This document shows, in pieces, positions 15,068 through 17,264 of a stretch of DNA of 64,000 nt. The position numbers and the translations under genes were made by a program. The DNA is taken from contig VGHE01000003.1 of assembly GCA_016868315.1 (NCBI GenBank), positions 309,044-373,043 on the forward strand, read 5' to 3'. How positions within the stretch are numbered: the stretch's first letter is position 1; every line of letters starts with the position of its first letter. This stretch comes from Betaproteobacteria bacterium (GTDB lineage: Bacteria; Bdellovibrionota_B; Oligoflexia; Silvanigrellales; Silvanigrellaceae). The notes below the pieces were generated by a model. The model worked only from the letters and a program-made list of their open reading frames with translations. It was not told where the DNA came from and made no database searches.

Positions 15068-15322
15068 TCATTGGTCTATGATGTGTAAGATGTATCGTTT
15101 GTTGAGCTTGGCTGCACCGCAATTAAGAATTGTGCGGATAGCATCGGCCGTGCGGCCATTGCGGCCAATCACTTTACCCACATCTTCTTTCGCAACTTTG
15201 AGCTCAATGACGTTGGTCTGCGTTCCTGCGATCTCATTGATTTCAACACGGTCGCAATTGTCGACAAGTGATTTTGCAATATAATCAATCAATTCTTTCA
15301 TACTGCCCGAACTAAAGTCCAT
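15068..15322 (-). CDS. khpA: KH-domain RNA-binding protein, KhpA-like
   Basis: 84 residues covering a single KH domain. The nucleic-acid-binding loop is VGKVIGRNGRTADAIRTIL (GxxG as GRNG), and the start MKELIDYIAKSLVDN is the KhpA wording. KhpA binds RNA, in Gram-positives together with KhpB. In many genomes it lies near rpsP, rimM and trmD; here it stands alone. AGGTGG lies about six bases before ATG 15322, which adds seven residues to the usual start; ATG at 15301 is the alternative. A strong terminator follows. Confidence 0.93.
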   Translation of the reverse strand: MDFSSGSMKELIDYIAKSLVDNCDRVEINEIAGTQTNVIELKVAKEDVGKVIGRNGRTADAIRTILNCGAAKLNKRYILHIIDQ

Positions 15323-15512: not shown

Positions 15513-17264
15513 ATGCGTTCCTCAATCACCGCGCAACTCTGGCGATACGCAGAGGGACGAATATTCCGCAAGGAGTCGACCGTGGGTGAGCATTTTACGC
15601 TGAAGAACAATCAGATCTTCGTTCTCGCCGAGGCAGCTGGTGGCGTGTACAACAGTGATCAGCTCCGGACTCTTTGCGAAGTTGCCGACAACGAATCGGC
15701 ATTTTTGAAAATAACCGAAGACCAGCGCATTGGGTTCATGATCGACCCTGGAAAGCTTCCTGACATTCAGGCACAAGTGCGCAAGATTGGCCTGCTGCTG
15801 AAGTCCTACAAAGCACCAGGTGTGCCTTCGCCGCGCGCCTGCCTGGGCGAACTCTGCACCTTCTCGCACCAACCCTCATTGAGTGATGCACTCGAACTTA
15901 CAACTCATCTTTTGAAATCTTTTCCGGCTCCCAAGCGCTATTCGAGTATCGGAGTCAATGGCTGCGGTCGAGCGTGTCTCGGTTCATCGACTGAAGATGT
16001 GCACATCGTAGCTGAAGAAAGTGGATACAAAATTTCAATCGGAGGCAAGATCTCCGATCTGCCACAGCAGGCACATCTGCTCGTCGAAAACGTCACACGC
16101 ACTGACCTTCCAGTTGTCGTCGAAAAGATACTTGCCGTTTTCTACCAGGAGAGCATTGAAGGCGAACGGATTCATGACGTCATTGAGCGGGTCGGACTCA
16201 CACCCTTCATTAATGCCCTGCCAGAACACTTGAGCGTCACAACCAGCGAACCTGTCGAGCTCCATGAGCAAGTTGCGGAACTGAGCACAATAGAAAATGA
16301 GACTCTCCAAGGAGCTTCACAACGCGAGCTCAGCTTGGCCGCCGATATGACAACTGATTCGCTGATCGATGAACTCATCGACAGCTCCTCAGCTGAGTTT
16401 CCACAGCTTGACGGTGAAACTGGACTGGTCAGCTCCGACACACAGCTCGATCCAGCACTCCTCGAAGACAACGAGCCTGTTGTTGACATTGCTGCTGAGA
16501 GCGAGAGCGTCGACGCGCTCGAGCTCAACGCCAATAAAGATGATGACAATTCTCAAATGGACTCAGGCCTGCTCGAGGAAGCTGAGTTTGAGGACGGCAC
16601 TCTTGAGGATGTTGAACGTGTGCGCGATGCGATTCGCACAGAACTCTCCATGAGCCCTTCCGAAGAGCTCAAAGAGGCACATACGCACACTGACTTGCTC
16701 GACGAGATTGAGCAGGAAAACGAAGGCTCAGCATTCATTGCTCATGACTCCTTCTCAGATCAGGACACCCTCAAAGCTGATTCAAGCGACACGATGGACG
16801 ATTTGAATACCGACGTATCGAGCCTACTTCCTGAGGAGAATGATTGGAGCGACAGCACCGACACCAATCATGGCTTTGCATCGGAAAAAATCGATACCCA
16901 AGAAGCGGCCACTTTTGAGCACCAGCCACCTGTAAAACAAAAGCGTATCAACTCAAAGGTCTCATCAAATGTCGAGTCGCGGAGTGAAAGGGAGCAGCCG
17001 CGGTGGCAGAGCGCTGAACCACAGCCCGCAGTCAGTGGGCGGCTCGCAATCAAGTTCGTGGGAGATCAACTGGCTATCGAGCTCCCCTCAGGCATGTGCT
17101 TCGACTTGCCTTTTGATGCTGTGCCCGAGGGTGCGGAATTCTCAATGGTCTTGCCCGATGGCGAGCTCCACATGGAGCGCGATCAAGGCACGCTGGCAGT
17201 CAGACTCGGTCAGCTCAACATGCGCTTCCCCATACCCAGTGCATCGCACCGCAGGGTCGCATAA
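15513..17264 (+). CDS. Nitrite/sulfite reductase-like siroheme domain fused to a long acidic tail
   Basis: 583 residues in three parts. Residues about 28-95 match the ferredoxin-like half-domain of nitrite/sulfite reductases (KITEDQRIGFMID). Residues about 105-185 match the siroheme/[4Fe-4S] domain, with cysteines 110, 115, 151 and 155 (CLGELC and NGCGRAC, the latter the normal CX3C; the first pair is CX4C instead of CX5C). Residues about 235-500 are extremely rich in Asp, Glu and Ser and look disordered. About 505-583 form a small beta-rich end. Only one reductase half is present and no redox partner is encoded nearby, so a sensor or scaffold role is as likely as catalysis. AGGA precedes the ATG. 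Confidence 0.75.
   Translation: MRSSITAQLWRYAEGRIFRKESTVGEHFTLKNNQIFVLAEAAGGVYNSDQLRTLCEVADNESAFLKITEDQRIGFMIDPGKLPDIQAQVRKIGLLLKSYKAPGVPSPRACLGELCTFSHQPSLSDALELTTHLLKSFPAPKRYSSIGVNGCGRACLGSSTEDVHIVAEESGYKISIGGKISDLPQQAHLLVENVTRTDLPVVVEKILAVFYQESIEGERIHDVIERVGLTPFINALPEHLSVTTSEPVELHEQVAELSTIENETLQGASQRELSLAADMTTDSLIDELIDSSSAEFPQLDGETGLVSSDTQLDPALLEDNEPVVDIAAESESVDALELNANKDDDNSQMDSGLLEEAEFEDGTLEDVERVRDAIRTELSMSPSEELKEAHTHTDLLDEIEQENEGSAFIAHDSFSDQDTLKADSSDTMDDLNTDVSSLLPEENDWSDSTDTNHGFASEKIDTQEAATFEHQPPVKQKRINSKVSSNVESRSEREQPRWQSAEPQPAVSGRLAIKFVGDQLAIELPSGMCFDLPFDAVPEGAEFSMVLPDGELHMERDQGTLAVRLGQLNMRFPIPSASHRRVA

Follow-up and report, generated by a model that had tools for sequence, protein, structure and literature searches.

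Among described proteins, the closest to the one studied here are siroheme enzymes in which a single ferredoxin-like plus sulfite reductase (SiR) half is present. Fsr shows that single-half siroheme enzymes exist; its sulfite ligands, Arg355, Arg423, Lys460 and Lys462, are conserved across sulfite reductases, and its cluster motif is CX5CXnCX3C (PMC10229431). The C-terminal siroheme domain of NirB has the same single half, in a protein that also has NADH/FAD and [2Fe-2S] modules. IspG (GcpE), a [4Fe-4S] enzyme of the MEP pathway, contains no siroheme, and its C-terminal domain has a SiR-like fold, in a protein that also has a TIM barrel. Among regulators, the XRE/IrrE systems (ImmA-ImmR, IrrE-DdrO) link an XRE helix-turn-helix and an M78-like part to a partner, with the idea of regulated proteolysis. 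The protein described here resembles each of these systems in part, and would be a siroheme-free regulatory protein rather than a reductase.

The window, a stretch of 64,000 nucleotides, contains an open reading frame of 583 codons at 15513-17264 (+), confirmed at the coordinates first given for it. Homologues begin at the position equivalent to GTG 15582, and we moved the start to this codon because in the sister species an in-frame stop precedes the equivalent GTG, and an AAGGAG six bases 5′ of the GTG is common to both species; codons 1-23 (15513-15581) are probably not translated (Table 1). As the original prediction held, the product is a lone reductase-like half fused to an acidic tail, which both the open reading frame and the Pfam matches bear out, and no flavoprotein, ferredoxin or other electron-donor gene lies beside it, the neighbours encoding a glycerol-kinase-type FGGY kinase, KhpA, an MscS protein and a VTT protein. 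Adjacency to khpA is kept in Silvanigrellaceae (11 genomes). The protein is the sole NIR_SIR match in the whole 3.24-Mb genome, which rules out an ordinary two-half reductase with a partner elsewhere.

Table 1. Features of the locus and of related proteins; coordinates refer to the window unless a locus is named.
Feature	Coordinates	Strand	Basis
khpA (KH-domain RNA-binding protein), divergent neighbour	15068..15322	-	Pfam PF13083
Putative ribosome-binding site AAGGAG for GTG 15582	15570..15575	+	Sequence; kept in sister species
Likely true coding sequence	15582..17264	+	GTG start, 560 aa; longer frame begins at ATG 15513
Single SiR/NirB-like half, residues 24-244	15582..16244	+	Pfam PF03460 + PF01077; AlphaFold; VIA
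C110-X4-C115, shortened first cluster motif (canonical CX5C)	15840..15857	+	45/45 family rows
C151-X3-C155, second cluster motif	15963..15977	+	Invariant in 45/45 rows
Acidic linker, predicted disordered, residues 245-505	16245..17027	+	Charge-hydropathy
C-terminal beta domain, no Pfam family	17043..17237	+	Alignment; model; same protein across class
C-terminal RRVA tail, candidate ClpXP degron	17250..17261	+	Homologue tails mostly -AA
CheX-domain protein with same C-terminal beta domain	L182:2492-3622	+	Directly 3′ of XRE paralogue
CheX-domain protein with same C-terminal beta domain	L183:2525-3463	-	Directly 3′ of XRE paralogue
CheX-domain protein with same C-terminal beta domain	L185:2566-3660	-	Directly 3′ of XRE paralogue
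CheX-domain protein with same C-terminal beta domain	L187:2188-3141	-	Directly 3′ of XRE paralogue
CheX-domain protein with same C-terminal beta domain	L188:3345-4520	+	Directly 3′ of XRE paralogue

The N-terminal domain consists of a ferredoxin-like half (NIR_SIR_ferr, PF03460, residues 41-90), which scores over the curated Pfam cut-off, and a NIR_SIR region (PF01077, residues 146-241) that reaches 45.9 bits against a cut-off of 27. Its predicted structure has a mean pLDDT of 83.7 (AlphaFold), and the closest fold is the Fsr sulfite reductase domain 7np8 (VIA, Z 21.3 over 221 residues); the Fe-S half also matches IspG (VIA, Z 9.8 over 93 residues), an enzyme that a PDB sequence search with the window protein did not report. 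The best NCBIfam match is NirB (E 2.5e-21). Unlike NirB, however, the protein has no NADH/FAD or [2Fe-2S] modules, and it has neither the ferredoxin insert of Fsr nor the barrel of IspG. The four cysteines read from the sequence at the outset, C110/C115 and C151/C155, are invariant in all 45 rows of the family alignment. The first pair is spaced CX4C in 44 of 44 homologues, or 45 of 45 counting one more divergent member, whereas all 14 outside relatives have CX5C, so that the family departs from the canonical CX5C...CX3C pattern; the shorter spacing could weaken cluster binding.

Around the cysteines, the siroheme pocket has been lost. By alignment and NirB mapping, Fsr R355, R423, K460 and K462 correspond to L38, P105, Y143 and S145 of the window protein, with a possible error of one residue in the match to Lys460. 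NirB Arg570 is basic in 12 of 14 outside relatives but Glu in 44 of the 45 family rows (E40 in the window protein), and the positions of Arg648, Lys673 and Lys691 are non-basic in the family. Equivalents of NirB K596 and R602 are kept, and the position of Fsr K462 (NirB K675) is Lys or Arg in 33 of 45 rows, all outside Silvanigrellaceae. With the basic substrate and siroheme residues gone, this domain shows the loss of the heme pocket that the original prediction had itself named as its refutation, and this tells against the siroheme reading.

The supply of siroheme points the same way. When the window's genome was searched for siroheme synthesis, there was no match to SUMT (uroporphyrinogen-III methyltransferase, TIGR01469); this genome is 94.8% complete, and single-contig relatives are also without SUMT. 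The gene is missing from 38 of the 46 genomes that carry the family (26 of 32 among high-quality genomes), including G010 and G011, each a single-contig genome. Two TP-methylases are present in the window's genome, RsmI (over its cut-off) and a YabN-like protein, and neither is SUMT. A 268-aa TP-methylase-domain protein (L180:742-1548:+) has YabN as its nearest NCBIfam family, far below that family's cut-off. HemE was found in 15 of 16 genomes checked, which suggests that tetrapyrroles are made and that the siroheme branch is missing. Two-half SiRs were found only in seven genomes of the class, all of which have SUMT, and the same seven also carry the acidic-tail protein. A CobG-type role in cobalamin synthesis is unsupported, since SUMT and the cobalamin methylases are absent in most carriers. 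We consider the window protein very probably siroheme-free, and with SUMT absent from its genome and from most carriers, neither the siroheme-reductase half nor the siroheme-based sensor of NO or sulfite that had been proposed can be upheld. A [4Fe-4S] domain without siroheme is chemically plausible on the modelled structure because the pocket is lost, the cysteine cage is kept and the Fe-S half matches siroheme-free IspG. Judged from the alignment, the N domain probably carries such a cluster, and a sensor based on [4Fe-4S] could still be accommodated because the four cluster cysteines remain.

A profile search with the N domain found the family in 46 of the 58 genomes examined from its GTDB phylum and in 22 of 30 genera, so that the architecture sought in other genomes does recur there, with the domains in the same order in about 20 genera. 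Among named relatives, Silvanigrella, Spirobacillus and Silvanigrellales MAGs stand nearest (NCBI Bdellovibrionota, Oligoflexia); a contig search for relatives, which was pattern-limited, found Silvanigrella relatives only. Across 325 genomes outside the phylum no match rose above 113 bits in the profile search, and family members score 282-372 bits, except two fragmentary or divergent ones. The family is a clade of its own (100/100 support, long stem), apart from NirB and from single-half proteins of 224-251 aa in other phyla. In a 1.2-Mb genome from another family of the order (L157, G014), a truncated and divergent SiR-like domain keeps both CX4C and CX3C. Measured against the sister species as pN/pS, which was used because synonymous sites are saturated, the N domain stands at 0.10, the C-terminal domain at 0.15 and the linker at 0.47, ratios that indicate strong purifying selection on the two domains and weaker selection on the linker. 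Such selection, together with conservation in 46 genomes, rules out a pseudogene or a frameshifted reductase.

The Asp/Glu-rich disordered region, first estimated at 260 residues, was recovered as a linker of 261 residues with 69 D/E against 15 K/R and no Cys, and it plots below the charge-hydropathy boundary, where disorder is predicted. In about 17-20 members outside Silvanigrellaceae the linker contains two 19-residue motifs, usually 25-28 residues apart, which score 10-25 bits with no shuffle above 8 bits; the remaining linker is unalignable. These motifs are probably docking sites, and a search of the window protein for the two of them found neither. In L023 (G025) and L021 (G042), the linker runs at the contig end into near-perfect short repeats (DELDAG, EASEAS), which suggests fast, repeat-driven length change.

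Beyond the linker, the small C-terminal domain that had been anticipated comprises about 65 residues in seven predicted beta strands (pLDDT about 90). It is conserved across the class, and a domain-only search recovered it from the same protein in every case that the contig permitted. Foldseek returned nothing under E 0.1 and the best VIA match had a Z of 4.0, within the noise range; such an absence of fold match does not make the fold new. The end of the protein is also conserved, with -AA in 27 of 36 intact family C-termini and AA, AS or VA in 34 of 36, compared with -AA in 4 of 169 neighbouring control genes. The tail lies at varying distance from the last strand, and because this spacer varies in length, it appears to be the free end itself that is conserved. 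Since Ala-Ala-COO- is the main ClpX determinant (PMC7652416) and the terminal Ala-Ala is conserved, ClpXP turnover of the family proteins is likely; the window protein, with VA in place of AA at its end, has in RRVA a weaker match to the degron.

Gene order connects the family to a regulator. In carriers outside Silvanigrellaceae, the SiR-like gene lies immediately 3′ of, and in the same orientation as, a gene whose product is an XRE-like helix-turn-helix protein with a C-terminal part resembling M78/IrrE. This arrangement was found in 28 genomes, with a gap of ≤300 bp in 25. Only the M78 part of the XRE proteins is matched by Pfam, with an E-value of 1.6e-8 in one of three proteins tested and below cut-off in the other two. 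In contrast to ImmA-ImmR and IrrE-DdrO, the M78 part is without the HExxH zinc site (10 of 10 XRE-A proteins), and its partner, instead of being a protease, carries a SiR-like or a CheX domain. In Silvanigrellaceae, window included, the SiR-like gene is not beside an XRE gene and adjoins khpA instead, and XRE-A orthologues persist in genomes without the SiR-like protein; for these reasons we regard the pairing as strong but not obligatory. XRE/degenerate-M78 proteins (L061:7782-8684:+ and orthologues) occur in 57 of the 58 phylum genomes, usually as several paralogues per genome. In the window's own genome, the gene after a further XRE paralogue (L184:3092-3673:-) encodes a pentapeptide-repeat protein whose N-terminus is very acidic.

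Searching the class with the C-terminal domain gave weak matches in a second protein, which has a CheX domain; HMM E-values for the match ran from 1e-7 to 2e-3, and hhalign gave 92% for one of the members. In five genomes (G034, G045, G050, G053 and G054) the gene for this protein lies immediately 3′ of a different XRE paralogue. The CheX domain keeps its E-x-x-N motif intact, and the protein also has an acidic stretch, the C-terminal domain of the SiR-like family and a tail of -AA, -VA or -IA. The strongest evidence for a modular role in regulation is that one linker, output domain and tail are combined with either of two input domains, in each case next to an XRE paralogue.

We interpret these observations as follows. 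The single NirB/Fsr-type SiR fold, with its four ligands kept, would most likely hold a [4Fe-4S] cluster, with the state of the cluster (redox, O2, NO or iron supply) serving as input. The acidic disordered linker would tether this domain to the C-terminal beta domain, a likely output or docking module, and the free -AA/-VA tail would make the protein a likely ClpXP substrate, its level probably set by regulated degradation. Its presumed partner is the XRE-type DNA-binding regulator that carries the degenerate M78 domain and is usually encoded just 5′ of it, and in the sister module the CheX domain would replace the SiR-like domain, downstream of another XRE paralogue. We lean towards a regulatory role for the protein; the whole chain, in which a siroheme-free Fe-S input domain sits in a short-lived partner of an XRE regulator, is evenly balanced between being right and being wrong. 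The earlier suggestion that the protein is not an ordinary enzyme, and is perhaps a sensor, is consistent with the lost pocket, the missing donor gene and the DNA-binding regulator that adjoins most relatives, although its siroheme basis falls away.

Other explanations account for part of the same evidence. The protein could be an electron-transfer or Fe-S scaffold protein, which passes electrons or delivers its cluster to clients bound by the linker and C-terminal domain and senses nothing. Invariant cluster ligands beside a lost pocket would suit such a carrier, as would short recurring linker motifs that may bind partners, but the XRE pairing and the CheX-input sister protein point to regulation and a housekeeping carrier would not usually conserve a degron-like tail, making this unlikely. 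That the domain is a cofactor-free pseudoenzyme, in which the four cysteines form disulfides or bind zinc, is quite unlikely: CX4C spacing in every member favours it, yet the cysteine positions match the cluster cage of the SiR and IspG folds and all four sites are invariant.

The two remaining alternatives would place a tetrapyrrole or another ligand in the cavity. A heme or ligand sensor, in which the emptied cavity holds another tetrapyrrole (e.g. protoheme) or a small molecule, draws on the retained fold and on HemE, from whose presence in nearly all genomes checked protoheme is probably made. We find it decidedly improbable, as most of the basic residues that would hold tetrapyrrole carboxylates have been replaced, one of them by an almost invariant Glu, and no heme motif was seen in the protein. 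Least credible, and in our judgement very improbable, is a genuine single-half siroheme sulfite or nitrite reductase of the NirB/alSIR/Fsr type, acting as a homodimer and obtaining its siroheme externally or through a pathway that escaped recognition. Fsr itself, the closest fold, the four cysteines kept and the short single-half proteins of other phyla lend it some precedent, against which stand the carriers without SUMT, the lost sulfite-binding Arg and Lys residues, the altered CX4C, the missing electron-donor gene and the fusion to an acidic linker and a tail-bearing domain.

If the siroheme-free regulatory reading is true, the family is a clear case of a sulfite reductase fold that has lost siroheme and catalysis and has been maintained across a phylum, apparently in a regulatory role. 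The literature searched yielded no account of a protein of this kind. A wider proposal, which we put forward tentatively and consider doubtful as it stands, is that of a modular phylum-wide system, undescribed in that literature, in which XRE/degenerate-M78 regulators would act with short-lived partners built from an exchangeable input, an acidic linker, a beta output domain and an AA degron, the input being either a siroheme-stripped SiR serving as a [4Fe-4S] redox or NO sensor or a CheX phosphatase domain. The finding would also be a caution not to annotate such genes as nitrite or sulfite reductases or to credit these bacteria with sulfite or nitrite reduction, and the CheX version suggests a reusable two-gene design.
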